From contig NZ_QWKZ01000014.1 of the NCBI RefSeq assembly GCF_003574085.1, positions 1 through 37,987 on the forward strand: a DNA stretch of 37,987 nucleotides. Direction: 5' to 3'. A program made the translations under genes and the position numbers. Below, piece by piece: positions 8,568 to 25,916 of this stretch. Within the stretch, counting starts at the first letter, position 1; the number at the start of each line of letters is the position of its first letter. This stretch comes from Meiothermus luteus. Lineage in GTDB: Bacteria > Deinococcota > Deinococci > Deinococcales > Thermaceae. Below the pieces are notes generated by a model that ran no database searches, was not told the origin of the DNA, and saw only the letters and a program-made list of their open reading frames with translations.

Positions 8568-9361
8568 ACCTCTACCAAGCTTTGGGGTACACGGAAGCCC
8601 TCAGCCACCCACCAGTCAGTTTCCATTTGTCCCCCTTCAGGAAAGGCCATAGGGAATTGTTCGAAACCCTTTATAGGGGCGGGGTCTTGCCAATTCCCCA
8701 CACCTTCCCATACTGGCTTGTAAAGTGTGTAGACGCTAAAGTTGAGTTCCCCCTGGGTTGCACCGTTTATGGCCTCCTCAAGGGTGATTAGGGTGCGGGG
8801 TTCGGCCCGTCCCCGCTCTGAGCGGAAGGATAGTACTGGCGAAACAAACTCGAGATAGGCGTACCCTTCCTTGCCGAGCTTGCCCCCATACGGCAGGGTC
8901 TCGTTCTCTGACCTAAAGGGTGCGACCAGGGCCTCGAGGGGTTCTTTCTCCTGGCAAAGGACATAGCCCACAAAGTGCTCCTCGAGCAGGTACTCCCAGG
9001 AGTGGAGCTGCGGGGCCTCCATGTCGGCAGTGACCAACGCAGAGCGCGTCTTCGAGGCAAACCCCTTGGTGCCGTGCCTCTTTGTGCGGTGGGGCACGGG
9101 CTTGATGCGTTCAGAATAAGCTCCCAGGCTGATCAAGGGCTTGGGCAGGTAGTAAAAGGGGCTATCCCTGAGGCCAGTTTCCAGGAAGTCCGGTCCTTCA
9201 GACTTCGTGGTGCTCGTGGCGTATCGCCAGAGCCGGTATAAGAAGCCCGAGAGGGTACTGGGGGGCACGAAAGGGTAACTGGCGATGTCCAGCATGGAGC
9301 CTGGTAACACTCGGAAGGTTAGTGCTCCAGTAGCCCTGAGGACGAACCGAAGACCGTACAT
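8558..9361 (-). CDS. cas5: CRISPR-associated Cas5 family protein
   Basis: Cas5 caps the 5' handle end of the crRNA complex and contacts the large subunit. The 267-residue protein opens with the Cas5 pattern (GALTFR near residue 13-18, then YPFVPPSTLSGFLYRL about 29-44), followed by a glycine-rich element near GGKLGKEG. The ATG lies just after the cas7 stop; its own end overlaps cas3. The class is clear from the N-terminal motif and the gene order cas7-cas5-cas3. Subtype is less clear: the PPSTLSGFL box is usual in I-A/I-B Cas5 and I could not assign it to Csc1 (the I-D Cas5). Confidence 0.85.
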   Translation of the reverse strand: MYGLRFVLRATGALTFRVLPGSMLDIASYPFVPPSTLSGFLYRLWRYATSTTKSEGPDFLETGLRDSPFYYLPKPLISLGAYSERIKPVPHRTKRHGTKGFASKTRSALVTADMEAPQLHSWEYLLEEHFVGYVLCQEKEPLEALVAPFRSENETLPYGGKLGKEGYAYLEFVSPVLSFRSERGRAEPRTLITLEEAINGATQGELNFSVYTLYKPVWEGVGNWQDPAPIKGFEQFPMAFPEGGQMETDWWVAEGFRVPQSLVEVWS

Positions 9362-9363
9362 AG

Positions 9364-10233
9364 TTAGACCAAGTGTTCTTTGGCGAATACTTCAGCCATC
9401 CGCTCGAGCTCGGCCAGAGCAGCCTCGCCCACCCAGCGGGCGAAGTAGGCATCTTCGGCTTTACCGCTTGCAAAGCTTACTCCCCGAACCCGCCGGGCTT
9501 CTTGGCGGAAGCTCGCAAGAGCCTCTTCTATGTCGGTTTGGTGCGGACTGATGATGGGCCTAGCTCCCTTGGGCACTAAGTAGCGGTCAAGGACCAGGTA
9601 AGGGCCAAACTCCTCGTCTGAAAGGACACACGCCCCCTTAGGGTTACCCGCCCCCACGCGGGGCAGTGCGTTGAGGAAAGCGTAAGCCGCAGCAGCGAAC
9701 TCCTCCTCGCTCACGCTGAGGGCATGGTTGTAGACCGGGTAGTAAAGGCCCGGCTGGTTGTATTCGCGCCTAAAGGGTGTAGGGTTCTCCTGATCCTTGC
9801 CCGAACGCACCAAGTCGGAGGGGTGCATAGCCCGCTGCTTCTCCTGGGGTTCTAGGGTTTGAATTGCCACGCCGCCCCCATGGGTAAGCCGCCCAATAAC
9901 GGTCTTTTCTCCTGGGCGCAGGGCTCCATAGACACGGCATATTGGGCAGGTTGGCTTGTCACCCTCCGGCTCCATCCGGGCGCAGGTACCTGGGATGCCG
10001 CACTCGAGGTGCTCCCCTAGAGTCTTGCCATCTCTGTGCGGGGCCCAAAGCAAGGTGCGCCGCTCGATCCCCCGGCGCTTGGTGGGCGAGAAATAGGCCT
10101 TGACCACCTTACCCCCGGGCCCCTCCAGGGTTACCGTCTCCACCCGGTTGACGTTGATCTCTACCTCGTGGCCAAAGTAAAGCTCCTGCGGAGCCTCCAA
10201 CACCGCATAGATATCCCAGTGGTACCGTTTCAT
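9364..10233 (-). CDS. cas7: CRISPR-associated Cas7, Csc2-like backbone subunit
   Basis: Cas7 polymerises along the crRNA spacer to form the backbone of the surveillance complex. This 289-residue protein carries a four-cysteine zinc site, C78, C84, C96 and C99, with CPIC followed by RVYGA, the arrangement I know from subtype I-D Csc2. Later segments (IGRLTHGGGVAIQT and NALPRVGAGNPKG) fit the beta-hairpin thumb and RNA-binding loops of RAMP backbone proteins. It is third from last in the operon, 10 bp after the large subunit and 2 bp before cas5. Cas7 identity is strong from context. The Csc2 (I-D) assignment is from motif recognition only. Confidence 0.82.
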   Translation of the reverse strand: MKRYHWDIYAVLEAPQELYFGHEVEINVNRVETVTLEGPGGKVVKAYFSPTKRRGIERRTLLWAPHRDGKTLGEHLECGIPGTCARMEPEGDKPTCPICRVYGALRPGEKTVIGRLTHGGGVAIQTLEPQEKQRAMHPSDLVRSGKDQENPTPFRREYNQPGLYYPVYNHALSVSEEEFAAAAYAFLNALPRVGAGNPKGACVLSDEEFGPYLVLDRYLVPKGARPIISPHQTDIEEALASFRQEARRVRGVSFASGKAEDAYFARWVGEAALAELERMAEVFAKEHLV

Positions 10234-10242
10234 GCTGCCTCC

Positions 10243-10776
10243 TCAGTCCTGCAAGAGTCTTGGGTAACGGGTGAACAAGAAGAGCTTGACTTGATACAGA
10301 AAACCTCTCCAGTCAGCGGGGCTGGGGTACTGGGTAATCAGCCAGGCGTACACAGCAGACAGATCCTCCGGACGGAGGCTCAGAAAGCGGGTAGGACGCC
10401 CCTCGATCTCCGCTTGGCCCTCCCGTGAAAGGCTCTGCCCGAATTTTTGGTCTGCCTCCTCCAGCAGTTCTTTGGCCCAGCGGTAGCCGTACTGGTGGCG
10501 CTCATCCCAGTAAAGCCGCACCTCGTCGTAGCCGTATCCCTCCGTTCCCTCGGGCGTAGCTCGTGCAGCGGAGGCGCGGTTGAGGAAGAGGGCGGGTTCG
10601 GCGTCTGCCAGTTGAATAAGCTTCTTGAGCTCCCGGTCTCTGTCCTCCAACTTGAGGTCGCTACGCTTTTGCAGCGCCCGGCGAGCTTCTTCGGTAAAGG
10701 CATAGAGCAGGCTGGCATAACCCACAATGTGTCGTTGTTTCTGCGCCTCTTTCTTGGCCTGTTCATCACCCTTCAT
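10243..10776 (-). CDS. Probable small subunit Cas11 made from an internal start in the large-subunit gene
   Basis: Inside the large-subunit frame, a GGAGGT sequence stands 4 nt before an in-frame ATG at 10776, a much better ribosome site than that of the large subunit itself. Starting there gives a 177-residue, lysine/arginine-rich, predominantly helical protein (MKGDEQAKKEAQKQ...), the right size and character for Cas11. An in-frame ATG four codons earlier (10788) is a second option. Internal translation of Cas11 from cas10d or cas8 is established for subtypes I-D, I-B and I-C, and no separate small-subunit gene exists in this locus. The signal is seen; the product is inferred. Confidence 0.6.
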   Translation of the reverse strand: MKGDEQAKKEAQKQRHIVGYASLLYAFTEEARRALQKRSDLKLEDRDRELKKLIQLADAEPALFLNRASAARATPEGTEGYGYDEVRLYWDERHQYGYRWAKELLEEADQKFGQSLSREGQAEIEGRPTRFLSLRPEDLSAVYAWLITQYPSPADWRGFLYQVKLFLFTRYPRLLQD

Positions 10777-12519
10777 GAGTACCTCCATCAAGCTTCCCCG
10801 TGCCTCCTCTACCTCCCGCTGGATCGCTGGAAGCTCATTCGTGTCAAAGCCTCCCTCCGCCAACCCTAGGAGCAGCTCGTATTCACCAAAAAGCCAACGC
10901 CCCCGGTCAAAGTAGCGCACCGCCCGACCCAGCCGGCGGTTGAGGTCATCCCTGAGGCGAATCTCCTGTCGGTAAGCCCGGGAGAAGACGGCGGTGGCGA
11001 AGAGGGTGGAGGGGCTTAGCCGAACCTCGCTACCCTTGTTGTAGAGGTAGACCTCGAGGCCCCTCTGGAATACCTCTGGGGGCAAGGTCAGCGCCAGCTT
11101 GGCTAAGGCATAGTGCTTACGGCCCCAAACCTCAGGGGCTGGTCTTCTCTGGCTATCGCTTTCGGTAGCCCGCAGGCCGATGTAATCTCCTGCGCTTGCC
11201 CCCAATTCGTTTAGCACCTGCCGTTCCAGGGCCCGCCGGGCCTCTTCGCGAACATCCGCCCAGCCTCCCAGCCGCACCACCTGGGTTTCTGCCGTGAGCT
11301 TAACCGGCCCCAGGAGACTAAGGCCCGCACACACAGCACACACCTCTACCGGCCCGCTGGAGCCTGCCGACTGCGCCCGCTGCTCGGGGGCCTCGAAGAG
11401 AAGCCGCCGCGATTTGAAGGTGGGGTTATTTCTATCCAGAACCTTTCCGCAGCTGTAGCAGAAGCGCCCATGAGAATCTCCCGCTGGGCGAAAACCACTC
11501 ACAAATGCGTTGGTAGAAAGCAACGGCGTCAGGGTGTATAGCTCGTATTCCCCCTCAGCTAAGCGAACCATCTCCCAGATGATCTTGGGGAAGATATCCC
11601 CACGGGCGGAGTTAAGCTGCTCCCGAGCGGTGGGTCCATACCCGCGGGCTGCTTGCTCTACCTCATAGTAAATCTGCGGATTACGAGCTCTGAGGCGGTC
11701 GGGCAGGGTCTGCAAGTCAACGGATCCCCCCAGGACCACTCTGAAAGTTTGGGCGGTTCGACTATTCGGATAATTCTTGATTAGCCGTTCAACCCCTGAG
11801 CGCACCTGCTCCTGGAAGGAAAGGGCCTTCTCACGCTTCTTAGCTTCTTCCTCACGCAACTTCGAGGCATTTTTTGCATCGGATTCTTCCAAGGCTTTCT
11901 TGGCGAGAATATTGGCCTCCTCCAAATCTCGCCGGTTCACCTCCAAACCCTTTCGCATAGCCAGCCAATAAAGGCCAGCGATGCTAAGGGCGTGCGAGTG
12001 GTTGAAGATGGGGGTTTCCAACGTGGAAAACCCCGCACCTCCAGCAAGTTTAGCTGAGTTCAAGGCCAAGACGAAAGTTCGCCGGAATCCCTGAGCACTG
12101 GTCAGCTCTTCCAGGAAAGCCCGCCAGCGCTCCTCGAGCCAGAGCCCAGGGTCACTCGGAGCTTCTAAGGGAAACCACAGCACCACGTGACCTGCGCTCT
12201 CGCTCTCTACTACTGCCCTGTCACCCTGCTCCAGAAAGCGCACGAACTCGGCCAGCACGTATTCGTATGCCAAGCGAGCCTGGGTTTCGCCAGGGAGGGG
12301 ATGCTTGTAGAGCAATAGGTGCTTCCCCTCTAATTGGGGTAGACCCTGCGAACAGGAAGCACTACCCCGATTGAGCGCTCGGGCGAGCTGGGGGAACCCG
12401 TAATGGACCAACCACTCCAGGACACTCGGGTCACCTTTAAGACAGCCCAACCAGTGTAGGGCCTCTCCGCTGCGTACCGCAGCGAGCGCAGCGTATTTTT
12501 TCACTTCTAACCTTGTCAT
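10243..12519 (-). CDS. Type I CRISPR large subunit (Cas10d/Cas8-like) with zinc finger
   Basis: By position (first of large subunit-cas7-cas5-cas3) and size (758 residues) this is the large subunit that reads the PAM and holds the complex to target DNA. Numbering from the ATG at 12519: a zinc finger C354xxC357...C394xxC397, a charged, probably coiled-coil stretch (about 195-235) and a helical C-terminus. There is no N-terminal HD motif and no GGDD cyclase motif, so it is not a type III Cas10. It looks like Cas10d (Csc3) lacking its HD domain. The upstream TTG (12540) overlaps the WYL stop and is an alternative start. Its last 177 codons can be read separately from an internal start at 10776 (own entry). 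The family name is tentative: Cas10d-like, with Cas8b as the alternative. Confidence 0.7.
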   Translation of the reverse strand: MTRLEVKKYAALAAVRSGEALHWLGCLKGDPSVLEWLVHYGFPQLARALNRGSASCSQGLPQLEGKHLLLYKHPLPGETQARLAYEYVLAEFVRFLEQGDRAVVESESAGHVVLWFPLEAPSDPGLWLEERWRAFLEELTSAQGFRRTFVLALNSAKLAGGAGFSTLETPIFNHSHALSIAGLYWLAMRKGLEVNRRDLEEANILAKKALEESDAKNASKLREEEAKKREKALSFQEQVRSGVERLIKNYPNSRTAQTFRVVLGGSVDLQTLPDRLRARNPQIYYEVEQAARGYGPTAREQLNSARGDIFPKIIWEMVRLAEGEYELYTLTPLLSTNAFVSGFRPAGDSHGRFCYSCGKVLDRNNPTFKSRRLLFEAPEQRAQSAGSSGPVEVCAVCAGLSLLGPVKLTAETQVVRLGGWADVREEARRALERQVLNELGASAGDYIGLRATESDSQRRPAPEVWGRKHYALAKLALTLPPEVFQRGLEVYLYNKGSEVRLSPSTLFATAVFSRAYRQEIRLRDDLNRRLGRAVRYFDRGRWLFGEYELLLGLAEGGFDTNELPAIQREVEEARGSLMEVLMKGDEQAKKEAQKQRHIVGYASLLYAFTEEARRALQKRSDLKLEDRDRELKKLIQLADAEPALFLNRASAARATPEGTEGYGYDEVRLYWDERHQYGYRWAKELLEEADQKFGQSLSREGQAEIEGRPTRFLSLRPEDLSAVYAWLITQYPSPADWRGFLYQVKLFLFTRYPRLLQD

Positions 12520-12532
12520 TCCCCCCGGAACT

Positions 12533-13507
12533 CTAACCAACTTCGGTCACCCCCTCCGGCGACAGATTAGCCTCCACCGCCCCCCGCGCCCACGCCACCA
12601 CCCTCAGCCTCAACTCCTCCGGCTCGAGCACCCTCGCATGCGGCCCGTACCCCACGATGAAATGCACCAGGTCTTCCGAAAGGGGCACCTCCACCTGCCA
12701 GATGACGCTACCGTCCTCGAGGTCTTCCACCTGTTGGGTGGGATGGCGGCGGGTGCGACGGATAAACCCGGCCTTTTCGGGGGAGAAGCGCACCCGGACG
12801 CACACCGCCTGCCCCTCGCCGCCAAAGGCCCGGAAGCGGCCCTGCGCATAGGCCCGCACATCGAAGGCGGGCTTAGGGAAGTGCTCGCGGGTGAGCTTGA
12901 GGTCCTGAATCTGGTCCAGCCTGAGGTCCTTCACCGGGTCGTGACCGGCCCTGCGGCTATTGTGGTTGGCGCCCACCAGGTAGAGGTGGGGGTCGCGGGC
13001 GATGAGGGCGTAAGGGTCGAAGCGGTAGGTCCTGACCTGCCCCTTGGCGTTCTTGTAGGTCACCTCACAGACCCGCCGCTCCCTTATGGCCTGCACCACC
13101 CGCTCGAAAAGCCCCTCGGGGTACTCGTCGGCCAAGGGAGTATAGAACACCGGCTCTTCCTTCTGGGCGCGCCCCCACTCCCCTCGGCCCAGCCGCTCCA
13201 GGACTCGCCGGGCTAGGGGGGTGAGGTGCTCCAACCGCTCCACCGCAGCCCGAAGGGCCTCCACCTCGGCCTGGGTCAGGCGGAAGGTCATCTCTACCTC
13301 CTGAGGGGCCTCGAGGCGGAACCAACCCCGTGGAACCTCCGGGTCCTCCTGGTGGGTGCACACCCAAACCCCCAAGGCTTGGGCTTTTTCCCTCAGGCGA
13401 TACACGCTCTGCCGAGCCACCCCAAGCCGGGTACTTATCTGCTCCACCGGAAGCCCTCTGGGGTGCTCCAGCAAGAGTTGGATGAAATCGGCTACCCGGC
13501 TTTCCAT
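12533..13507 (-). CDS. WYL-domain transcriptional regulator of the cas operon
   Basis: The 324-residue protein has an N-terminal winged helix-turn-helix (about 5-60, LPVEQISTRLGVARQSVYRL), a central WYL domain (about 150-230, where the name-giving motif reads LYLVGAN) and a C-terminal WCX-type extension (about 230-315). WYL domains bind ligands such as nucleic acids or nucleotides. WYL regulators are often placed in CRISPR loci; one in Synechocystis represses a type I-D system. It sits inside the operon, 14 bp after the Cas4-like gene and overlapping the extended large-subunit frame, so it probably regulates its own operon. Whether it represses or activates cannot be read from the sequence. 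Confidence 0.88.
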   Translation of the reverse strand: MESRVADFIQLLLEHPRGLPVEQISTRLGVARQSVYRLREKAQALGVWVCTHQEDPEVPRGWFRLEAPQEVEMTFRLTQAEVEALRAAVERLEHLTPLARRVLERLGRGEWGRAQKEEPVFYTPLADEYPEGLFERVVQAIRERRVCEVTYKNAKGQVRTYRFDPYALIARDPHLYLVGANHNSRRAGHDPVKDLRLDQIQDLKLTREHFPKPAFDVRAYAQGRFRAFGGEGQAVCVRVRFSPEKAGFIRRTRRHPTQQVEDLEDGSVIWQVEVPLSEDLVHFIVGYGPHARVLEPEELRLRVVAWARGAVEANLSPEGVTEVG

Positions 13508-13521
13508 GATTCAGAACCAGT

Positions 13522-14283
13522 TTACTCAGTAACGAGGCTCTGTGCTGCTAACTCCGTTACCTCACCAGTACGGGTGTCCAGCAAGTAGCGCCCGGGGGCT
13601 TGCGAAGCCGAGCAGGCGTGAGCGTAAGGGCAGTAGCGACAGGCCCGACCCGGGTTGAGCGCCTTGGGATTGGCTAAGGCGGTGCACAAGCTCTCCTGCA
13701 TCCGCCTGAGCCGGGCGTAGCCCCAGGGGATGATCTCCTCCGACCAGGGCTCTACCACTTCTTCTCCGCTCTCCAGGCCCACGGCGCGGGCCAACCGGGG
13801 AGGATTCCCAGTGGCTCCGTAGGCCAGAAACAGGTAGAGACGGAGCTGTTCCCGGCTGCCCCCTGGGTTTCCCGTCTTCCAGTCCCAAATCTCCTGGCCT
13901 AAGAGCAAATCCAGCTTGCCTACGAAGCGCACCGGCTTTCCGTCAAGTTCCAGCTTCCACTCCACGAACGCCTCCACCCGGTGCGCCTCCCCCTCGAGGT
14001 TGGGTCGGTAGTCGGCCTCGAAGCGGGCGAGGCCCCTCTGAGCCCGGTTCAGCAGGTCATCCAGCTTCTCGCCTTCGCTAAGCATCACCCGCCGAGGCAA
14101 GCGGAAGGCTCCCTGGTTCACCGGGAGACCCAGGCGCAGGCTGGTGGCGATGCGCCCGTGAACCTCCTTGCCCAGGGCTGTGCTGGCAAAGGGGGCAAGG
14201 GAAGGCTCTTTGTGTAGCTGGGTCCGCACGTAGCGGCTGGGGCAGGCCAAGTCGGCCTCGAGGGTAGGGTAAAGGGTCGTCAT
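13522..14283 (-). CDS. Cas4/AddB-like PD-(D/E)XK nuclease with Fe-S cysteines
   Basis: First gene of the interference operon. From the ATG at 14283 (ribosome site GAGGG just upstream; a longer TTG start exists at 14328) the 253-residue protein has all Cas4-type landmarks: C14, H42, D125 (GKLDLL), D134-x-K136 (WDWKTG), Q146, and a C-terminal triad C215, C218, C224 for a [4Fe-4S] cluster. Cas4 trims prespacer 3' ends and selects the PAM side. It differs strongly from the Cas4 at 15115-15681 (188 residues, next to cas1), so the locus has two Cas4-like nucleases. It may be a second prespacer processor or a RecB-family repair nuclease attached to the operon. Nuclease fold secure; role inferred. 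Confidence 0.8.
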   Translation of the reverse strand: MTTLYPTLEADLACPSRYVRTQLHKEPSLAPFASTALGKEVHGRIATSLRLGLPVNQGAFRLPRRVMLSEGEKLDDLLNRAQRGLARFEADYRPNLEGEAHRVEAFVEWKLELDGKPVRFVGKLDLLLGQEIWDWKTGNPGGSREQLRLYLFLAYGATGNPPRLARAVGLESGEEVVEPWSEEIIPWGYARLRRMQESLCTALANPKALNPGRACRYCPYAHACSASQAPGRYLLDTRTGEVTELAAQSLVTE

Positions 14284-14349
14284 CTGCCCTCGAGCCTGGA
14301 GGAGAGCTGTCGCCTCATCCGGTGACAATAGGCGGTCACGTAATTGGTC

Positions 14350-14385
14350 TTGAGGAGCTATGTAGATATAGCCATAATAGCCATA
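14350..14385 (+). promoter_or_regulatory. Leaderless promoter and direct repeats of the toxin-antitoxin operon
   Basis: TTGAGG (14350-14355), 17 nt, then CATAAT (14373-14378), then 6 nt to the ATG at 14385: standard spacing for a leaderless transcript. There is no ribosome site. TAGCCATA occurs twice in tandem (14369-14376 and 14378-14385), overlapping the -10 box and the start codon, so it is a candidate operator for self-repression by the antitoxin-toxin complex. Confidence 0.55.
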
Positions 14386-14660
14386 TGCGTAGCGTATCCG
14401 TCAGCGAGGCCAAAAACCGGCTAAGCTTGCTCCTGGACTGGGTAAGACAAGGCGAGGAGGTGCTCATCCTGGACCGGGGTACCCCAGTAGCCCGGCTCAG
14501 CCCCGTCCCACCGGCCTCCGGGGAGGCTTTGGGCCTTCTGGAACGCTCGGGGCTGGTTCGTCGCGGTAGCGGGAGGGCCGTTCTGGCGGGGCTACCCTGG
14601 CCCAAGGCCCGCTCGAGCGCCCTGGAGGCCCTCCTATCCGAGCGGGAGGAAGGGCGTTGA
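14385..14660 (+). CDS. Antitoxin, Phd/YefM family
   Basis: A 91-residue protein starting MRSVSVSEAKNRL, the Phd/YefM DNA-binding fold that represses its own promoter and whose C-terminus wraps the toxin. Seen: SVSEAKNRLSLLLDWVRQGEEVLIL and TPVARLSPV (about residues 3-44), then a variable acidic C-terminal tail. A longer frame reaches back to 14322, but the ATG at 14385 is at the conserved N-terminus and directly follows a -10 box. It overlaps the PIN toxin by 4 bp (TTGA). The pair stands in the gap between the two divergent halves of the cas locus, and may stabilise that locus or simply have landed there. Confidence 0.87.
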   Translation: MRSVSVSEAKNRLSLLLDWVRQGEEVLILDRGTPVARLSPVPPASGEALGLLERSGLVRRGSGRAVLAGLPWPKARSSALEALLSEREEGR

Positions 14661-15091
14661 GGTTCTGGGATAGCTCGGCCCTGGTTCCCCTCCTCACCCT
14701 CGAGCCCACCTCCTCCCAGATGCTCGCCCTCTACCAGAGCGACCCCGAGCTTTTGGTCTGGTGGGGCACCGAGGTGGAGCTTGCCTCGGCCCTGGCCCGA
14801 CTGGAGCGGGAAGGGGCGCTACGGCCGGAGGAGGCCGACCAGGCCTTCGCCCGGCTCATGGCCCTCAAGTCCGCTTGGCACGAGGTGCTGCCTTCGGAGG
14901 AGGTGCGGGAGGCTGCGAGGCGCTTTCTCCGGGTGCATCCCCTACGGGCCATGGACGCCCTACAACTGGCTGCAGCCTTCGTAGCCAGCCGCGGGAGGCC
15001 TTCACAGCTCACCTTTGTCTGTCTGGATGCGCGGTTGTTGTTGGCGGCGAAGCGGGAGGGATTCCCGGTATTAAGTCACCTAGAGGAGTGA
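14657..15091 (+). CDS. vapC: PIN-domain ribonuclease toxin, VapC family
   Basis: VapC toxins are Mg-dependent RNases that cut tRNA or rRNA and stop translation when freed from their antitoxin. The 144-residue protein keeps the acidic active site: D5 (FWDSSALV), E41 or E39 (TEVELAS), D100 (MDALQLA) and D124 (CLDARLL). It starts with TTG overlapping the antitoxin stop, which implies coupled translation. About 24 bp follow before cas4, on the same strand, so cas4-cas1-cas2 may be read from the toxin-antitoxin promoter. All catalytic positions are intact, so it is probably active. The pairing with a Phd/YefM-type antitoxin is common for PIN toxins. Confidence 0.88.
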   Translation: MRFWDSSALVPLLTLEPTSSQMLALYQSDPELLVWWGTEVELASALARLEREGALRPEEADQAFARLMALKSAWHEVLPSEEVREAARRFLRVHPLRAMDALQLAAAFVASRGRPSQLTFVCLDARLLLAAKREGFPVLSHLEE

Positions 15092-15114: not shown

Positions 15115-15681
15115 ATGGACTACTTGCCACTCGCCAGGGTCAACACCGTCGCCTACTGCCCTCGGCGCTTCTACCTGGAATACATCCTGGGCGAACTCTA
15201 CGCCAACCACCACGTCATCGAGGGTCAGTACCTCCACGAAAGGGCCTACACCGAGCCGGACGAACTCTCGGGGCTTTGGGTTTGGTCGGACCGGCTGGGG
15301 TTGGTGGGGGTGGTGGATCGCTTGGAGTGGCGGAAGGGGGAGGCCTTGGTAGTGGAGTACAAGGTGGGCCGGGCCAGCGAAGAAGCCTACCTCTCCGACG
15401 CCGTTCAGCTCGCAGCCCAGGCCCTGTGCCTCCTGGAATCACGGGGGATCGAGGCCAAGCGAGGCTTCGTTTACTACCATAAGAGCCACGTCCGCCGCGA
15501 GGTGGCCTTCACAGAAGCGCTCTTTGCCGCTGTAGAGAAAGCCGTGGCCCGGATGCGCACCCTTCTTGGGAGCTCCAGACCTCCGGGGGTGGAGGTGCCC
15601 CCTGCCAAGTGTGGGGGGTGTAGCGTGCGGGAAGCCTGCCAGCCCGAGCTGTGGCGCAAGGGGGTGGCGGGGTGGGTGTAG
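15115..15681 (+). CDS. cas4: CRISPR-associated exonuclease Cas4
   Basis: Cas4 works with Cas1-Cas2 to choose PAM-bearing prespacers and trim them to length and orientation. The 188-residue protein is standard: Fe-S cysteines C15, C166, C169 and C175, His41, and the nuclease core D68 ... E81-Y-K83 (VVEYKVG). It starts with ATG at 15115, 24 bp after vapC, and its end overlaps the start of cas1. With cas1 and cas2 it forms the adaptation module, opposite in strand to the effector genes. Its activity is relevant to the oversize phage segment in the array, whose left edge coincides with the end of a normal spacer. Confidence 0.95.
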   Translation: MDYLPLARVNTVAYCPRRFYLEYILGELYANHHVIEGQYLHERAYTEPDELSGLWVWSDRLGLVGVVDRLEWRKGEALVVEYKVGRASEEAYLSDAVQLAAQALCLLESRGIEAKRGFVYYHKSHVRREVAFTEALFAAVEKAVARMRTLLGSSRPPGVEVPPAKCGGCSVREACQPELWRKGVAGWV

Positions 15682-16649
15682 TCTATGTGCTCGAGCCCGA
15701 CGTCTACCTTTCCAAAGAGGGAGGAACCCTCAAGATAGCTCGCCGCGCCGGGCGAGAAGTCCTGCTGCAAAAGCCACTCATCGGCATCGAGGAGATCGTG
15801 GTGCTGGGAAATGCGGTAGTGACCCCGGCCCTCCTCAAGCACTGCGCCCAGGAGGGCATCGGCCTGCACTACATGTCCTCTGCGGGCACCTACTACGCAG
15901 GCCTCACCCGCACCCCGGCCAAGAACGCCCCGGCGCGGGTGGCCCAGTTCAAGGCTCACCTGGACCCGGCCCGAAAGCTTGCCCTGGCCAAGCGTTTCGT
16001 GCTGGGCAAGCTCCGAAACGGTCTGGTGCTCCTCAGGCGCAACGGGGCCCCTGGCTGGGAAGCCCTCCGAGCAGCCATAGCCGACGCCGAGAGAGCCCCG
16101 GACGAGGATGCTTTGCGCGGGGTGGAGGGGATGGCTGCCGACGCCTACTTCCGGGCCTTTGCGAGCCTCTTGCCCGAAGGCTTCCAGTTCGCCGAGCGCA
16201 ACCGCCGTCCGCCCCGCGACCCGGCCAACAGCCTGCTCTCGCTGGCCTACACCCTGCTCGCCAAGGAGTGTGAAAGCGCCCTTCAGATCGCCGGACTGGA
16301 CCCCTACGTGGGCTTTTTGCACGAAATCCGCTATGGTCGAGCCTCGCTGGCGCTGGACCTGATGGAGGAGTTTCGGAGCATCCTCGCCGACTCGGTGACG
16401 CTCTCCCTTTGCAACAATCGCCGCCTCACCCTCGAGGACTTCGACGATGCCGAGGGCTACCCAAGACTGCGCAAGGAAGCCTGGCCTAAGTTCTTAAAGG
16501 CCTGGGAGGAACGCCTCGCCGAGCGGGTGCGTCACCCCCTCCTGGGTAAGAGCCTCTCATACCGCCAGACCCTGCTGGCCCAAGCCCGCATCCTCGTCAA
16601 GCACCTCCTGGGCGAGCTGCCTCAGTACGAGCCCTTCACGGTGCGATGA
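15672..16649 (+). CDS. cas1: CRISPR integrase Cas1
   Basis: Cas1 is the integrase that joins new spacers to the leader-proximal repeat. The GTG at 15672, after a G-rich ribosome site and inside the cas4 end, puts the conserved start VVYVLEPDVYLSK at the N-terminus (325 residues); a GTG at 15651 gives seven extra residues. Metal ligands are present: E152 (VEGMAADAYF), H217 (GFLHEIRYG) and D229 (LALDLMEEFR). Length is normal for type I Cas1 (about 320-340). The 3' end overlaps cas2 by 4 bp (ATGA). It looks intact, so the array should still be able to grow. Confidence 0.95.
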   Translation: MGVVYVLEPDVYLSKEGGTLKIARRAGREVLLQKPLIGIEEIVVLGNAVVTPALLKHCAQEGIGLHYMSSAGTYYAGLTRTPAKNAPARVAQFKAHLDPARKLALAKRFVLGKLRNGLVLLRRNGAPGWEALRAAIADAERAPDEDALRGVEGMAADAYFRAFASLLPEGFQFAERNRRPPRDPANSLLSLAYTLLAKECESALQIAGLDPYVGFLHEIRYGRASLALDLMEEFRSILADSVTLSLCNNRRLTLEDFDDAEGYPRLRKEAWPKFLKAWEERLAERVRHPLLGKSLSYRQTLLAQARILVKHLLGELPQYEPFTVR

Positions 16650-16930
16650 AGGAGCTTTACCTCGTCATCGCTTACGATACCCCCTCGGACTCGAGGCGGG
16701 CCAAGCTCGTCAGACTCCTCAAGGGTTTTGGCGAAAGGCGGCAATACTCGGTCTTTGAGGCTCGGCTTACCCGCGAGCAGTGGGCCCACCTCAAGGGAAG
16801 GTTGGAGGCCTTGGTAGACAAAAAAGAGGACATCCTCGCAGTCTACTTCCTTCCCCCCGAGGCCGTGGGCCGGACCTGGCGGGTCGGCCACGAAGGGCTC
16901 AAGCGTCTCGAGGACCCTGACTTTGTATAG
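16646..16930 (+). CDS. cas2: CRISPR adaptation protein Cas2
   Basis: Cas2 is the small dimer that holds two Cas1 dimers and sets spacer length. The 94-residue ferredoxin-fold protein shows the N-terminal YLVIAYDTPSD (Asp11) and the family motif RRQYSVFEARL (about 31-41). Its ATG overlaps the cas1 stop, so the two are coupled. It is last of the adaptation module; the leader and first repeat follow within 240 bp, the usual arrangement. No oddities. Confidence 0.95.
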   Translation: MKELYLVIAYDTPSDSRRAKLVRLLKGFGERRQYSVFEARLTREQWAHLKGRLEALVDKKEDILAVYFLPPEAVGRTWRVGHEGLKRLEDPDFV

Positions 16931-17168: not shown

Positions 17169-20100
17169 GTCGCAAAGCCTGTTAGCCTCGTAGAGGATTG
17201 AAACAAACTAGCTAGGCTTTCCTCGATGCGCTGATTGGGTCGCAAAGCCTGTTAGCCTCGTAGAGGATTGAAACCAATAAACTCGCGTCTAGTAATCGCG
17301 CGAAGCTCCGTCGCAAAGCCTGTTAGCCTCGTAGAGGATTGAAACTGGTCAGGCAGATCCTTGGGCACGGGCCCCACCACGAGTCGCAAAGCCTGTTAGC
17401 CTCGTAGAGGATTGAAACCCGAAGAAGTTGGCGCCGTCAGGCCCCTGGGCGCTGGTCGCAAAGCCTGTTAGCCTCGTAGAGGATTGAAACCGGTAGGCTG
17501 GCCTGGTTCTCCAAGAGCTTTCGCCTGTCGCAAAGCCTGTTAGCCTCGTAGAGGATTGAAACGCCGTGCATTTGGCGAGGCCTTTGAACGCGAGGCGTCG
17601 CAAAGCCTGTTAGCCTCGTAGAGGATTGAAACTCGGGGTAGAGGGAAAACTCGTTATCTGCAACCCTCGTCGCAAAGCCTGTTAGCCTCGTAGAGGATTG
17701 AAACCTGGCCAACCCGGTCAAGCTGGTGGGCGGTGTACCGTCGCAAAGCCTGTTAGCCTCGTAGAGGATTGAAACGAGGATGTGCCGTTCTGCTCTAACC
17801 CTCATCCTCTAGTCGCAAAGCCTGTTAGCCTCGTAGAGGATTGAAACTATCATGTCTATCACCCCGCGGGCATCGTACCACGCGTCGCAAAGCCTGTTAG
17901 CCTCGTAGAGGATTGAAACGAGCCTGAGACGCTCCAGTTCTCCCCTCTCATCTCTGTCGCAAAGCCTGTTAGCCTCGTAGAGGATTGAAACCAGGGCGTC
18001 CCCGTCCTGCGCTACTTCGGCTACCCCGTCGCAAAGCCTGTTAGCCTCGTAGAGGATTGAAACGGGCGCTGAACGGGCAGTAGTCATCCCTAACATCCAG
18101 GTCGCAAAGCCTGTTAGCCTCGTAGAGGATTGAAACCCCCGCGCCCGCCTGCGCCCCTGATAAGACGGGAGGGTCGCAAAGCCTGTTAGCCTCGTAGAGG
18201 ATTGAAACTCCCGGAGGTAGGACTGAAACACGCGCACGGGGATGCGTCGCAAAGCCTGTTAGCCTCGTAGAGGATTGAAACGATGCCGGAGGAGCGCGTT
18301 TACGAGCGTCTAGAAGCGTCGCAAAGCCTGTTAGCCTCGTAGAGGATTGAAACCTCTCTGGCATCCGTAACGCCGCCAAGGCGTTCTTGGTCGCAAAGCC
18401 TGTTAGCCTCGTAGAGGATTGAAACTACCTTCACCCAGGATTGGCTTGCCCCCCGCATGTGTCGCAAAGCCTGTTAGCCTCGTAGAGGATTGAAACACAA
18501 TCTCTCCACCCGCACGCAAACGCTCCCAGGAGTCGCAAAGCCTGTTAGCCTCGTAGAGGATTGAAACTCTTGTATCTGGGCCACCTTTATAGCGGCCATC
18601 CTAGTCGCAAAGCCTGTTAGCCTCGTAGAGGATTGAAACTACCATGACTCTTGCCCATAACCGCCCACGCCCCAAGTCGCAAAGCCTGTTAGCCTCGTAG
18701 AGGATTGAAACCAGCTAGACCTTGAGCCGGTGGAGGCCCGCTGGCAAGTCGCAAAGCCTGTTAGCCTCGTAGAGGATTGAAACTCCAGCACCGGCATCAC
18801 CGACTCCGAGACTCTCCAGGTCGCAAAGCCTGTTAGCCTCGTAGAGGATTGAAACTATCTCCTCCCGCCGGGGGTGGGTGCAGATTGTGCACGTCGCAAA
18901 GCCTGTTAGCCTCGTAGAGGATTGAAACGCTCATTGGCGTTCACCTCCCGCGCCCACTCCAGGAGTCGCAAAGCCTGTTAGCCTCGTAGAGGATTGAAAC
19001 ACGTACTCGTCCCGGTGGAGCCGGACCACGCCCACCGTCGCAAAGCCTGTTAGCCTCGTAGAGGATTGAAACCTCAATCAGGACGACGTTCCCCCAGACC
19101 CTGTGGGCGTCGCAAAGCCTGTTAGCCTCGTAGAGGATTGAAACGTGCAGGGCCTCCTCGGGGAAGAGGCTCCACCACCGGTCGCAAAGCCTGTTAGCCT
19201 CGTAGAGGATTGAAACCCCACGGTGCCGGCCACGCTGGCGTTCACCCGGATCGGTCGCAAAGCCTGTTAGCCTCGTAGAGGATTGAAACCGCGTCGGCGC
19301 TCGCGAGGGCACCGCTGGCATTGAGGTCGCAAAGCCTGTTAGCCTCGTAGAGGATTGAAACCAGCTCGTCGAGGCTGTTGATTTTGCGTGGTTCCAAGTC
19401 GCAAAGCCTGTTAGCCTCGTAGAGGATTGAAACGCTACCACGCCTCCGCCCTGAGCGGTGCGCCAACGGGTCGCAAAGCCTGTTAGCCTCGTAGAGGATT
19501 GAAACGCCCGTTGCTTGGCCTCATTAGTCAGCGCCACCGCGTCGCAAAGCCTGTTAGCCTCGTAGAGGATTGAAACGCATTGCAGGATTTGCCGTCGTTT
19601 TTGTTTGCGTATGTCGCAAAGCCTGTTAGCCTCGTAGAGGATTGAAACACCCACCGCCTGATTCCAGCTCAACGCCCAGCACCGTCGCAAAGCCTGTTAG
19701 CCTCGTAGAGGATTGAAACCGAGTAGGCGCGGCCATCCAAAATGGTTACGCCCGGGTCGCAAAGCCTGTTAGCCTCGTAGAGGATTGAAACGATGTTGGC
19801 CTCGAGGGGCCAGTGAAATACCTTGAGTCGCAAAGCCTGTTAGCCTCGTAGAGGATTGAAACCTCCGCACCGGCTCGTCATAGTCCGAGGCCCACCTGAG
19901 TCGCAAAGCCTGTTAGCCTCGTAGAGGATTGAAACGAGAACGCCACGGCCGAACTGCTCGAGGCCCACCGCGTCGCAAAGCCTGTTAGCCTCGTAGAGGA
20001 TTGAAACCTGTGGATCAGCCCCCGCACCTGGGAGGCACTGGCCGTCGCAAAGCCTGTTAGCCTCGTAGAGGATTGAAACCCGCCGCTGATGCGCTGGTTC

Positions 20101-21950
20101 GAGCAGCTGGGCCTTGTCGCAAAGCCTGTTAGCCTCGTAGAGGATTGAAACACGGCCTCGAGCCCGATGTCCCGCAGCCGGTCGCGCGTCGCAAAGCCTG
20201 TTAGCCTCGTAGAGGATTGAAACTAGGAGCCCACCTGCTGGAATGGCCGCTTGGAAATAGCGTCGCAAAGCCTGTTAGCCTCGTAGAGGATTGAAACCTC
20301 CGCACCGGCTCGTCATAGTCCGAGGCCCACCTGAGTCGCAAAGCCTGTTAGCCTCGTAGAGGATTGAAACGCAGAGAGCGCGGGAGCAAATTCGCCGCTG
20401 AGGGCGCGTCGCAAAGCCTGTTAGCCTCGTAGAGGATTGAAACACTCGCCACCATGCGGTTGAAGCGTTTGCTGCCCCGTCGCAAAGCCTGTTAGCCTCG
20501 TAGAGGATTGAAACAGAAACTAGCATTGTTGTTGGAGTTACAGTTTTCGCGTCGCAAAGCCTGTTAGCCTCGTAGAGGATTGAAACCGGCCGCTACCGCC
20601 TGTACAACTCCTCGGCCCTCGTCGCAAAGCCTGTTAGCCTCGTAGAGGATTGAAACGGTCGCCAGATACACATGGTGCCACGAATCCCCCCCGGTCGCAA
20701 AGCCTGTTAGCCTCGTAGAGGATTGAAACGCCCAGCGGGTGCTGGATAAAGGGGGGATTACCTCTTGTCGCAAAGCCTGTTAGCCTCGTAGAGGATTGAA
20801 ACTTCGCTAATCTGGACCTGGCTGAGGTGGCCCGGCTCGTCGCAAAGCCTGTTAGCCTCGTAGAGGATTGAAACCCGATACCGGGGACGCGGCCTGATCC
20901 AGCTCACGGGGTCGCAAAGCCTGTTAGCCTCGTAGAGGATTGAAACAATCCCGCGGGGTGGCTCGTGGAGGCGGGGGCGGACGTCGCAAAGCCTGTTAGC
21001 CTCGTAGAGGATTGAAACCTACAATGGCTTTGGGAGCGCCATTGCTCCCAGGAGTCGCAAAGCCTGTTAGCCTCGTAGAGGATTGAAACCTGCAGGCCCG
21101 CCGGGAGGCACGGGCCTACGAGCTTGGTCGCAAAGCCTGTTAGCCTCGTAGAGGATTGAAACATGCCACGGCCCGTGAGGGTTGTCGCCCCCGGGAAGTC
21201 GCAAAGCCTGTTAGCCTCGTAGAGGATTGAAACGCTGAAGCCGATGTCCACCTCAATGTATTCCAGGGTCGCAAAGCCTGTTAGCCTCGTAGAGGATTGA
21301 AACTTCTGTCGCATTCCCCGGCCCTACGGCAGCCTTAGAAGTCGCAAAGCCTGTTAGCCTCGTAGAGGATTGAAACGTCCTGGAGGGTGCGGAGGTTGAT
21401 GCCGTGCGCCTCGTCGCAAAGCCTGTTAGCCTCGTAGAGGATTGAAACAGGCGGCGCAGCTGATTCTCCGATATGACCACGTAGGTCGCAAAGCCTGTTA
21501 GCCTCGTAGAGGATTGAAACATAAAACCTCCTGAAACCTCCAAGGGGGGCCTATGGTCGCAAAGCCTGTTAGCCTCGTAGAGGATTGAAACTTCACGCCG
21601 TTACGCACCACATCGGCCTCCACGGTGTCGCAAAGCCTGTTAGCCTCGTAGAGGATTGAAACGAATTCCCGGCTCGGGGAACGGATACCCAGAGCATGTC
21701 GCAAAGCCTGTTAGCCTCGTAGAGGATTGAAACATGCGGATGGCCGCCTGCAGATGCCGCACCTCGCAGGTCGCAAAGCCTGTTAGCCTCGTAGAGGATT
21801 GAAACACGAGGTTCTGCAACAGGCCCCGAATGGGGGCGGGGGTCGCAAAGCCTGTTAGCCTCGTAGAGGATTGAAACTCTGCGCTCAGAATGACCTGGTT
21901 CTCAGTTACCACGAGTCGCAAAGCCTGTTAGCCTCGTAGAGGATTGAAAC
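17169..21950 (+). CRISPR. CRISPR array, leader-proximal part: 67 repeats, 66 spacers
   Basis: Sixty-seven copies of a 36-bp repeat beginning GTCGCAAAGCCTG and ending GAGGATTGAAAC, with spacers of 34-38 bp. By eye all copies are identical. The repeat holds a small hairpin CCTC-GTA-GAGG directly before ATTGAAAC, so Cas6 cleavage would leave that 8-nt handle. Translated fragments suggest phage targets, though none could be searched. One spacer occurs twice (19863-19899 and 20298-20334). The last repeat (21915-21950) is followed not by a normal spacer but by 2706 bp of phage DNA. Reading frames through the array are artefacts of the repeat. Confidence 0.99.
19863..20334 (+). repeat. Duplicated spacer inside the array
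   Basis: The 37-bp spacer beginning CTCCGCACCGGCTCG stands at 19863-19899 and again, identical, at 20298-20334. Five different spacers lie between, and the neighbours of the two copies differ, so this is not a simple block duplication. Confidence 0.97.
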
Positions 21951-21986
21951 CTCCCCGCTCAGGAGCATCTCCCGGGCCCTGGGGGT
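21951..21986 (+). other. Protospacer copy identical to spacer 24693-24728
   Basis: The first 36 bp of the phage fragment, starting CTCCCCGCTCAGGAGC and ending CCCTGGGGGT, are identical to the first spacer after the insert. In the phage copy the sequence runs on (CCAATCC...) as part of the protease gene, coding in reverse for TPRAREMLLSGE. The PAM side is lost because a repeat abuts it. Confidence 0.98.
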
Positions 21987-22271
21987 CCAATCCACGTTCA
22001 CCGCCCAGAGCCCGTCCGGGCGGACCTCGAGGTCGAACCACCCGGCGGCGGGAGCGGGCCCGGCGTTGAAGATGTTGAGAGCCCCGTGCTCGTAGTCGAT
22101 GGAAAGCCGGTTCCCCCACTCCCGCCAGCGCTCCATGACCGAGCGGGCCGATACGTCGTCAAAAACGAAGACCCCTTTGGTGGTCTCGATGCGCCCGAAG
22201 GGGAAAACGCGAAACTCCCGGGGAGGTTCTCGCCCCGGAAGCTCAACCGTGAGGGTGTATTGCCGCGTCAT
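21951..22271 (-). pseudogene. Mu gpI-like phage head protease, 3'-truncated
   Basis: The surviving 107 residues begin MTRQYTLTVELPG and carry the conserved N-terminal region of Mu-type phage head-maturation protease/scaffold (gpI): LSIDYEHGAL followed by PAPAAGWFDLEVRPDGLWAVNVDWT. It is cut after LLSGE by the CRISPR repeat; the frame then runs through the repeat and stops at 21906, giving a meaningless tail. Full-length relatives are about 350 residues, so the catalytic part is missing. In the intact phage it processes the capsid scaffold. The gene has its own minus-strand promoter-like sequence and hairpin upstream. It is a dead fragment here, and its 3' edge is the target of the neighbouring spacer. 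Confidence 0.85.
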
Positions 22272-22280
22272 GGCCCATGC

Positions 22281-22304
22281 AAAACCCCAGGCAAACGCCT
22301 GGGG
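22281..22304 (-). terminator. Hairpin with T run between phage gpF and protease genes
   Basis: CCCCAGGC (22285-22292) and GCCTGGGG (22297-22304) form an 8-bp stem with a 4-nt loop. Read on the minus strand it is followed by TTTT (22284-22281). It lies between the promoter-like boxes at 22329-22357 and the protease start at 22271, so it may be a terminator or attenuator of the phage head operon. Confidence 0.55.
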
Positions 22305-22328
22305 GTAGAGTTTCGCTAGCTTAACCTC

Positions 22329-22357
22329 ACCCTAGCGCAAAGCGGGACTCAGGTCAA
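22329..22357 (-). promoter_or_regulatory. Promoter-like boxes upstream of the phage protease
   Basis: On the minus strand TTGACC (22357-22352), a 17-nt spacer and TAGGGT (22334-22329) match housekeeping sigma boxes, about 58 nt before the protease ATG at 22271. The -35 is good and the -10 fair. Confidence 0.45.
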
Positions 22358-22366
22358 GGGGCGTGG

Positions 22367-22457
22367 TATACTGGAGTTAACCCGCCGGGCTGGGCCCGGG
22401 TTCCTGATAGCCCGGTGCAGGACGCGCGGCCTTCCGGGAGGCCGTAGCCCCTTATTT
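22367..22457 (+). ncRNA. Possible small structured RNA in the phage intergenic region
   Basis: On the plus strand a TATACT box (22367-22372) is followed by two hairpins, CCGGGCT/AGCCCGG (22385-22391 with 22409-22415) and CGGCCT/AGGCCG (22427-22432 with 22439-22444), then TTATTTT (22451-22457). This could be a transcript of about 75 nt antisense to the end of gpF. There is no clear -35 box and I recognise no RNA family. The hairpins may instead be an untranslated part of the phage head operon. Confidence 0.25.
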
Positions 22458-23588
22458 TGGCCACCGCAAGAACCCTGTCCGTTGCCCCTGGAGATAGTTT
22501 GGCGAGCGAGTTTCCAGGAAAGTCAGGGCCACTAGGACCCCACGGTGGAACTCAGCGGAAAGGACCACGTGGCGGTCTCGTCCTTCTCGGTAAACCTTAA
22601 GATACCTCTGCCGAAACACCACCCGCCGCCCGTGCTGGAGGGGCATGAGCCACACTTCCGCCGGACGCTCCACCAGGTCGGGGAGCCAAGCCAGGTAGCG
22701 CTCCCGCCCATCCCGGGCCAGGTGGTCCAGGAGCCCCCGGTCCACCAGCACCGCCAACCCCGTGGGGTCCACCAGGTGGACGGGCAGGGGGCCAAACACC
22801 TCCGCCAAGAGCTGCCGGAAGCGCTCCTCCCCCACCTCCGCCACCGTGGGCAGGGGCTTGCGGGGCGGGGGCTCCGCGGGCAGCCGCTCGGGCCGCCCGT
22901 AGGAGCGCCAGTCCGGGGGTTCCCCGATAAACGCGGGGGTCCAGGGCAGGAGGGCCGCCTGGCGCTGCCCCTTGGCGTAGCCCTCTACCCACTCCTCCGC
23001 CACCGGGGAGAGCCCAAACCCCTCCTGCGGGGGCATGGCGGGGAGGATGGCGCTTATCCCCCGGCGTCTGGCCTCTGCTTCGGTGAGGGCCCGCACCCCT
23101 GAGCGGCAGTTGTGGTGCAGGGGCGGCCAGTTCTGCTGCCACCAGGGGTCTTCTGCCGGGCGCACCACCCCGTCCCGGGCCCGGCAGATCTCCGTGGTAC
23201 GGCTGTCCAGCACGGCATCGTACATGAGGTAGGGGTGGGAGCGGCGCACCGCGGGGTCCTGCAGCTGATCCCACCGGCCGGCGGAGTACGCCGCCTGCAC
23301 GTTGTTGCGGAAGACCGTCTCCAGGTGCCCCCGGCTCCACCCCCCGCCGAGGATGGCCAGGGCTTCCTTCCGCCAGACCTCGAGGGGCACCCCTTCCTCC
23401 AGGGCCCGCAGGAGGGAAGCGTGCAGCTCGGCCATGCGGTCCAGGGTGGCCACCCCGGCGGCGGTGAACGCCCGACGGCGGGCTTCCTCCGTGAGCTGGG
23501 CCCACTCCCCTTTGAGGAGTGGCACCCGCTCCCGGAACCAGGCCACCGCCTCCTCAAAGCGCAAGGGGTCGGCGCTAACGCTCCACAT
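22452..23588 (-). CDS. Mu gpF-like minor head protein fused to a PBECR-type nuclease-like domain
   Basis: The only complete phage gene in the insert (378 residues). The middle carries the phage Mu F / SPP1 gp7 head-morphogenesis domain: MYDAVLDSRTTEICRARDG (about 121-139) and the cysteine-histidine end WPPLHHNCRSG (about 153-163). A linker leads to a C-terminal domain (about 245-378) with conserved features of the barnase/EndoU/colicin E5/RelE-like (PBECR) phage nuclease group: FGPLPVHLVD, GRRVVFRQRYL and the final LETRSPNYLQGQRTG. gpF-type proteins bind the portal side of the head and may enter the host with DNA. The C-terminal call is by pattern only. It overlaps the portal gene end by 14 bp. 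It has no host promoter on its strand here and is probably silent. Confidence 0.8.
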   Translation of the reverse strand: MWSVSADPLRFEEAVAWFRERVPLLKGEWAQLTEEARRRAFTAAGVATLDRMAELHASLLRALEEGVPLEVWRKEALAILGGGWSRGHLETVFRNNVQAAYSAGRWDQLQDPAVRRSHPYLMYDAVLDSRTTEICRARDGVVRPAEDPWWQQNWPPLHHNCRSGVRALTEAEARRRGISAILPAMPPQEGFGLSPVAEEWVEGYAKGQRQAALLPWTPAFIGEPPDWRSYGRPERLPAEPPPRKPLPTVAEVGEERFRQLLAEVFGPLPVHLVDPTGLAVLVDRGLLDHLARDGRERYLAWLPDLVERPAEVWLMPLQHGRRVVFRQRYLKVYREGRDRHVVLSAEFHRGVLVALTFLETRSPNYLQGQRTGFLRWPK

Positions 23589-24656
23589 CCCGGATGACCC
23601 CGTACCGCCCGGCCAGGGCGGCCATGGTCAGCGCCAGCTCGGTGAGGGCCGCCACCTCCTCGGGCGATGCGTCCCGGTAGCGGCGCATGAGGATGGCCCG
23701 CACCTCCTCGTAGCTTCCCGCCCTGGCAAGCTCTTCCTCCAACCCCTCCAACGGGTCCGGTAGCCGCTCCAGGAGCCGGTCGGCCAGGGCGTCAGCGTAG
23801 AGCTGCCCCTGCACAAAGCCGGGGGCTTCCCGTGGGCTGTCCCCCGACGCCAAGCGCACCCGCCGCAGTTCTTCTCCCCGGCGCAGGGGGATGCCGTATT
23901 GCCCCGCCAGGGCCTCGAGGTCCACGGGCACCCCGGCCTGGGCAAACGTGGCCACGGCGTTGGCCAGGCGGGCCAGGGTCTCCGCTTGGAGCTGCCGATC
24001 CTCTGGCGGCGTGGTGTCCCAGCGGGGCCAGGGGGCCAGGTCCGGCCTGCCGAAGTTGTATTCGGCCCACAGGGTGAGCACCCCCTGCCGCAGGGCCGTG
24101 GCCAGGGTCTCCGCATCGGCTTCCAGCAAATCCTGCCGCACCCGGGCGTGGACCTGGGCGGCGGCGTAGCTCCCCCCTTGAACATCAGTAGTCAGGTTTT
24201 GCCCCAGAACTGCCACCGCGATGGCCACATTGGCCCACTGGATGGCGGCCTCTTTGGACCGCCAGACCCCCTCGGGAGGAGCCAGCATTTCCAAACGCCA
24301 CCCTTCGGGCAGGACCAGGCCCGTGTCCCCCCCGAGGTCGGCCAGGAGCTGGGCCAGTTCCTGGCCCGTGGCCCCAGCCGGGCCCTCGGCGGTGGCCACC
24401 CGGAGCGCCCCCACCTCGTTGTCCCGGGCCCAGTAGCGGATGGCGTCCAGCTTCACCAGCCAGGGCAGGGCTAGGGCCCGCCACAGCCCCCGCTCCCAGG
24501 GGCGCTTGGGGCCGTAGGGGGTGTAGAGCAGCCAGAGCCCCTCCTGCAAGGGGTGCTCCTGCCCCTGGGCATCCCGCACCCACCACGCCCCCTCCCGCCA
24601 GCGCAGGGCTCCGGGGTGCCACACGTCCAGCTGGGGCCAGACTAGCCCGTCCTCCT
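23575..24656 (-). pseudogene. Mu gp29-like phage portal protein (DUF935), 5'-truncated
   Basis: About 360 residues of a Mu-type portal protein remain. The diagnostic segment is GQNLTTDVQGGSYAAAQVHARV followed by RQDLLEADAETL, typical of the DUF935 family. Full-length relatives have about 500 residues, so roughly the first 140 are missing. The frame begins at the repeat boundary; the apparent TTG start lies inside the CRISPR repeat at 24663 and is an artefact. In the phage the portal is the ring at the head vertex through which DNA is packed. It overlaps the gpF-like gene downstream, as in Mu-like phages. The fragment cannot make a working portal. Confidence 0.88.
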
Positions 24657-25916
24657 GTCGCAAAGCCTGTTAGCCTCGTAGAGGATTGAAACCTCCCCGC
24701 TCAGGAGCATCTCCCGGGCCCTGGGGGTGTCGCAAAGCCTGTTAGCCTCGTAGAGGATTGAAACCTCGACCAACACCCGCGGGGCCAGGGGACCGTGGAC
24801 GTCGCAAAGCCTGTTAGCCTCGTAGAGGATTGAAACCGATCCGATGTGGAAGGTTAGCGCCAACCCGGTCGTCGCAAAGCCTGTTAGCCTCGTAGAGGAT
24901 TGAAACATGCGCTCCTGATGCTGATCTAGCCTCTCGTGTAGCCGTCGCAAAGCCTGTTAGCCTCGTAGAGGATTGAAACATTCTGGCGCTGGGCCTGGAC
25001 GGGGCCCTCGGGGATGTCGCAAAGCCTGTTAGCCTCGTAGAGGATTGAAACCGGGTGGAGACGCCGAGGATTTCGGCGGCCTCACGTCGCAAAGCCTGTT
25101 AGCCTCGTAGAGGATTGAAACCTGCTAGCAGCTCGAACCTCAGCGGCAACGGTTCCCGTCGCAAAGCCTGTTAGCCTCGTAGAGGATTGAAACACCTCCG
25201 AGGCCGCCCTTGGGGCACTCCACGAGGGCGTCGCAAAGCCTGTTAGCCTCGTAGAGGATTGAAACAGGAGGGCGTCGGTGCTTCCACTAAGGGACAAAGT
25301 CGCAAAGCCTGTTAGCCTCGTAGAGGATTGAAACTTTTAGCTTTTTTAGTAGCTTTTCTACCCCACTTTGTCGCAAAGCCTGTTAGCCTCGTAGAGGATT
25401 GAAACAAGTCCTAGACCCGTTTCTAAAAAACAAATAAGGCCGTCGCAAAGCCTGTTAGCCTCGTAGAGGATTGAAACCTCTGCCCCCCTTTTAGCCCAGG
25501 AAGTCCAGTCCAAACGTCGCAAAGCCTGTTAGCCTCGTAGAGGATTGAAACCTCTCACCTTTCTAAGATTTTAGTCAAGGACGGTCAGGTCGCAAAGCCT
25601 GTTAGCCTCGTAGAGGATTGAAACACCCTTCCACTCGCGTGAAGGAGGAGGTAGCCAAGAGTCGCAAAGCCTGTTAGCCTCGTAGAGGATTGAAACAAGC
25701 ACCGTCACCTTCTCTTCCGCCACACCCTCAGGGAGTCGCAAAGCCTGTTAGCCTCGTAGAGGATTGAAACGTCAGAAACCCGGTACTAGACGAAATCAGC
25801 TACCTAATGTCGCAAAGCCTGTTAGCCTCGTAGAGGATTGAAACAGTCCAGGGAGGACTTATAGAATTTTCGCAAGGAATGTCGCAAAGCCTGTTAGCCT
25901 CGTAGAGGATTGAAAC
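24657..25916 (+). CRISPR. CRISPR array, leader-distal part: 18 repeats, 17 spacers
   Basis: The same 36-bp repeat and orientation as 17169-21950, so this is the older end of one array interrupted by phage DNA. The first spacer (24693-24728) matches the edge of the insert exactly. The spacer at 25052-25085 reads in reverse as EAAEILGVSTR, a helix-turn-helix fragment. Spacers from about 25266 on are poorer in GC (for example 25335-25369) than those of the leader-proximal part. The last repeat (25881-25916) shows no decay, which is unusual for an array end. Confidence 0.99.

Follow-up and report, generated by a model that had tools for sequence, protein, structure and literature searches.

A type I-B CRISPR array of Meiothermus luteus was found to hold 2706 bp of phage DNA in the place of one spacer. 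We consider this segment to have entered, with a probability of about 0.6, by homologous recombination of the array with a phage at two stored spacers, here called S1 and S2. This is the best explanation for the two flush edges of the segment, the doubled repeat–S2 unit and the missing S1 taken together, for what is a single example taken from a draft assembly. The window analyzed, 37,987 bp in length, is one whole contig of that assembly (2.87 Mb in 224 contigs).

A phage segment in a spacer position

The array is built of 85 copies of the repeat GTCGCAAAGCCTGTTAGCCTCGTAGAGGATTGAAAC, with zero mismatches in any of them, and the 3′ end of the repeat reads GATTGAAAC. Array and insert comprise the following features:

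17169–25916, plus strand: CRISPR array of 85 repeats of 36 bp and 84 spacer positions (repeat scan)
21915–21950, plus strand: left-hand repeat of the insert, intact and identical to the consensus
21951–24656, genes on the minus strand: phage segment of 2706 bp in a spacer position, 81% identical to the G028 prophage and 75% to phage Riverbug
21951–21986, plus strand: copy of S2 at the left edge of the insert, 36/36 identical to 24693–24728
24657–24692, plus strand: right-hand repeat of the insert, intact (repeat scan)
24693–24728, plus strand: S2, an ordinary spacer (repeat scan)

Among the 84 positions, 83 hold spacers of 33–38 nt (33 nt in one case, 34 in 6, 35 in 14, 36 in 43, 37 in 15 and 38 in 4), and the remaining one, at 21951–24656, spans 2706 bp and so lies outside the length range of an ordinary spacer in this array. 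The sequence-only reading had described phage DNA lying flush between two intact repeats, about 75 times as long as a normal spacer and beginning with the 36 bp of the adjacent spacer. All of this was borne out, with both repeats matching the consensus, a length ratio of 2706/36 and identity to S2 over 36/36 positions; such a shared spacer at the edge is what a product of recombination should carry. The direct repeat found on either side of the phage DNA consists of exactly 72 bp, namely the repeat plus S2, and leftwards the identity stops there. Elsewhere in the array, a 37-nt spacer is present twice (19863–19899 and 20298–20334), six units apart and with different neighbours, which represents either reuse of a protospacer or a remnant of array duplication.

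The CRISPR-Cas locus and the leader side

The locus is a type I-B CRISPR-Cas system, with the required gene set present:

4993–12540, minus strand: interference genes cas8b-cas7b-cas5b-cas3-cas6 (PADLOC profiles)
15115–16930, plus strand: adaptation genes cas4-cas1-cas2 (profile matches)

The PADLOC E values were 5e-108 for Cas8b, 2e-113 for Cas7b and 1e-49 for Cas5b, and Cas3, Cas6, Cas4, Cas1 and Cas2 were matched as well. The region between the two cas operons (13522–15091) holds a second PD-(D/E)XK nuclease, together with two small plus-strand genes that, judged by their translations alone, resemble an antitoxin–toxin pair. The sequence CGCGTGCGAAAATGNCCC was found 5′ of the first repeat and also 5′ of the related array in G020, a genome in which a similar repeat is present as single repeats only, on two contigs and in one case at the contig end. 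The leader is thus on the low-coordinate side, adjoining cas2, and the spacers to the left of the insert should therefore be the newer ones.

Phage content and relatives of the insert

The insert encodes part of a phage head module, with genes cut at both of its edges:

21951–22271, minus strand: Mu I protease, N-terminal part (PF10123), cut off by the left edge
22452–23588, minus strand: Mu-F head morphogenesis protein with a PBECR2 domain, reading frame intact
23575–24654, minus strand: Mu-type portal protein, C-terminal part (PF06074, E value 3e-48, profile positions 80–336 of 336), cut off by the right edge

The relatives of the segment were the G028 prophage (81%), the G034 prophage (76%) and the temperate Thermus phage Riverbug (75%), the latter being the nearest complete phage. 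The earlier designation of the insert as Mu-like is apt for the head module and not beyond it, as the annotation of Riverbug includes an integrase and a terminase but not a transposase. A search of IMG/VR, INPHARED and the Thermaceae genomes gave no parent phage and only relatives of at most 81% over the whole segment. In the available relatives the phage sequence carries on at both edges, without the repeat, the presence of which in a parent phage would, according to the sequence-only reading, have spoken against both models of capture. Viral contigs were searched for exact matches to parts of the repeat, of S1 and of S2, with zero hits, and none of them contained the final 32 nt of the repeat. 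Over the last 300 bp (24351–24656), identity to the G028 prophage (L004/L119) rises from about 80% to 98–99%, and this step would seem to be a mosaic border within the phage. The insert is present as a single copy in the host assembly. A resident prophage was considered as its source and rejected, the host assembly holding no further Riverbug-like head or tail DNA (using a query without the early-gene third of Riverbug).

PAM of the array and the left edge

For 21 spacers a protospacer was located at ≤4 mismatches, and the four bases 5′ of it were read; GGTN preceded the protospacer for 18 of these 21 spacers, and the PAM of the array is 5′-GGTN. In 7 of the 8 phage relatives that were read, GGTA stands directly 5′ of the point corresponding to the left edge, a position that was also aligned. 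A PAM as sought at this edge was thus present in the homologues, and on its leader side the insert begins as an ordinary spacer would. In the array, the repeat occupies the PAM place of the S2 copy, and therefore the copy at 21951–21986 is not expected to be a target of the S2 crRNA. S2 is the sole spacer of the array that matches the insert (the next best has 12 mismatches), and as judged from these matches the insert should now be targeted by no array spacer.

The left edge would also agree with capture of an untrimmed prespacer, a course of events that we find improbable: right after the acquisition of S2, Cas4-Cas1-Cas2 would have made a cut at the PAM of S2 once more and inserted the resulting long piece of phage DNA in full at the leader end. 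The GGTA of the homologues lies on the side facing the leader, as this would require, the cas4-cas1-cas2 genes are present, and the insert is on the leader side of S2, in the order expected had it been acquired next. In a type V-A system, spacers become somewhat longer when Cas4 is lost, but their most frequent length stays unchanged (PMC9419969). The same GGTN site would have to be used twice in succession out of roughly 680 per phage strand (a number extrapolated from 54 in 2.7 kb), for which the exact duplicate spacer elsewhere in the array suggests that site reuse may happen. However, one integrase complex must in addition meet both ends of a 2.7-kb molecule, no similar long insert was seen in the other Thermaceae arrays examined, and both the shared PAM end of two adjacent entries and the placement of a PAM near the right edge would be left as coincidences. 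That type I-B Cas4-Cas1-Cas2 took in 2.7 kb of phage DNA as a single spacer, correctly cut at the PAM end and left untrimmed at the other, is by our estimate likewise improbable; if it is true, the adaptation machinery is able to bring DNA of gene size into the chromosome.

A transposon or phage integrase could instead have inserted DNA into a repeat, with later shrinkage to 2.7 kb. Long gaps in related arrays do come from insertion sequences, and prophage integration into CRISPR loci has been described (Varble et al. 2021, as cited in PMC10434264). The present insert nevertheless has no transposase or integrase gene and no split target, both repeats being intact, and it is an internal segment of head genes that begins at a PAM and repeats the neighbouring spacer, which makes such an origin highly implausible.

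The right edge and a putative former spacer

At the opposite end of the insert, the following two elements were noted:

24615–24618, plus strand: GGTG, PAM of the putative protospacer S1, same sequence in the G028 prophage
24619–24656, plus strand: S1, putative protospacer and spacer of 38 nt, flush with the right edge (PAM position and length)

GGTG stands 38 nt before the right edge, at which an ordinary spacer of 38 nt, S1, could therefore have ended; the last 37 nt of S1 are identical in the G028 prophage. GGTN at spacer distance is found for 10–12% of the positions in the insert, giving a likelihood ratio of about 2.2 for the right edge, and the PAM at this edge is thereby weakly suggestive of S1. 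The length of 38 nt is rare, with 4 of 83 spacers. A cut at a PAM on the opposite strand of the right edge was also considered and rejected, the nearest homologue reading CTTT there and not the expected NACC. The sequence-only reading had proposed to look in the arrays of relatives for a spacer equal to the last 34–38 bp before 24656, and this search did not find one in 50 Thermaceae genomes; at ≤3 mismatches S1 was a spacer in no array of these genomes, with matches only in the window and in the G028 prophage. The repeat itself was absent at ≤2 mismatches from all the others of the 50 genomes, none of which thus has a sister array.

Ten spacers (18497–21841, and S2 at 24693–24728) match Riverbug-like phages, 9 of the 10 on one strand, including one run of neighbours:

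19001–19253, plus strand: sp26–sp29, four consecutive spacers, all matching one strand of Riverbug-like phages

With spacers against one strand of this phage family thus standing side by side in the array, an S1 placed beside S2 would be ordinary. A further spacer, sp46 (20444–20478), matches a TnpB-family gene in several Meiothermus genomes and in a plasmid of M. taiwanensis, with a flank other than GGTN.

Shared S2 and S1 sequences could also have misled the assembly, with reads from free phage being joined to reads from the array. The assembly is a draft of 224 contigs and both junctions fall at sequences possibly common to phage and array. Against this, the right junction of such a chimera requires an R-S1-R-S2 array (R, repeat) that is absent from the assembly, and head or tail DNA of the Riverbug type, the end of which might mark a false join, is found on no other contig. 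A chimera is unlikely, because false joins over 36–38 bp would be needed at both edges, yet a 36-bp repeat in 85 copies was assembled through in one contig.

Probable recombination of the array with a phage

Homologous recombination between array and phage, as the preferred reading, could have proceeded as follows. S2 would have been acquired first and S1 then beside it, both of them taken from one and the same strand of a single Riverbug-like phage, so that the array would have read X-R-S1-R-S2-R-Y; on the phage the order would be S2-P-S1, with about 2.6 kb between the two. A phage infecting the cell or taken up by it would later supply DNA, with the stored spacers serving as short homologies. 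Uptake of DNA is possible, as a ComEC family protein is encoded. A crossover in S2 would link the array copy X-R-S1-R-S2 to the phage, and a crossover in S1 would link the phage to a second array copy, S1-R-S2-R-Y, the product of this unequal exchange being X-R-S1-R-[S2-P-S1]-R-S2-R-Y. Unequal exchange at S1 and S2 would therefore leave repeat plus S2 (72 bp) bounding the insert on both sides. The leftover S1 would be self-targeting and would be removed by ordinary repeat–repeat deletion, resulting in the observed structure. Loss of S1 is to be expected because the S1 of the insert keeps its GGTG PAM and would be attacked, and S2 could stay because the S2 copy of the insert has a repeat where the PAM would be. 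Alternatively, an array already holding S2...S1...S2 might have arrived at this structure through a single double crossover.

Recombination of array and phage had been one of three models in the sequence-only reading and is the best supported of them, without need of the pre-existing second copy of S2 that it had included, as an exchange of ...S1-R-S2... with ...S2-P-S1... suffices. The structure of the array, its PAM, the PAM preceding the left edge in homologues, the one at spacer distance from the right edge and the lack of S1 among the spacers are observations; the former S1, both crossovers and the order of the crossovers are what we infer. The explanation is weakened by its need of two short crossovers (36–38 bp) and a later deletion, and also by the finding of S1 in no array, the rarity of the 38-nt length and the 81% identity of the closest phage.

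If recombination is the true origin, the array preserves from nature the mark of a process known until now chiefly through laboratory experiments. Stored spacers would then be landing sites for phage DNA, with a trace readable in the sequence, and immunity to a phage would itself provide the homology that lets parts of this phage into the chromosome. The suggested rule is that a spacer such as S2 may stay if the insert's copy of it has lost the PAM, and that one such as S1, with the PAM of its copy kept, must go.

Comparison with known systems

The type I-B system of the Thermus thermophilus megaplasmid resembles the present one in genes and gene order (cas4-cas1-cas2, WYL regulator, effectors, cas3, cas6) as well as in its repeats, but the megaplasmid arrays examined are without a phage segment, unlike the Meiothermus array. 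In arrays from about a dozen other Thermaceae records, no second example of phage DNA flush in a spacer position was found; the five gaps longer than 95 bp seen there all had insertion sequences or eroded repeats. In related Thermaceae arrays, IS-like elements break up repeats and spacers or adjoin them (L123 at 22762, L129 at 21168 and L134 at 6833). The IS insertions of L123, L124, L127, L129 and L134 are, as here, gaps of kilobase size (1.1–4 kb) in or beside arrays, but they hold transposases, their repeats or spacers are mostly split or eroded, and none starts with the neighbouring spacer. Literature searches for spacers of unusual length or form yielded no relevant paper.

In Streptococcus pyogenes, a whole prophage is reportedly integrated at CRISPR repeats. 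Phage DNA is thus inside a CRISPR array in both cases, the difference being that Meiothermus carries an internal fragment without an integrase, flush with the spacer borders. In staphylococci, phages and CRISPR loci are said to recombine using short spacer–protospacer identity as homology, with transfer of CRISPR DNA by the phage as the reported outcome. Spacer–protospacer identity would serve as recombination homology in both systems; there CRISPR DNA was reportedly moved by phage, whereas here the phage interval between two protospacers would have been left in a natural type I-B array. For staphylococci, phages have already been reported to recombine with CRISPR loci by way of spacers (Varble et al. 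2019, Nat Microbiol 4:956, as cited in PMC8616872 and PMC9071438), and the Meiothermus array would therefore represent a natural variant of a known process and not a new kind.
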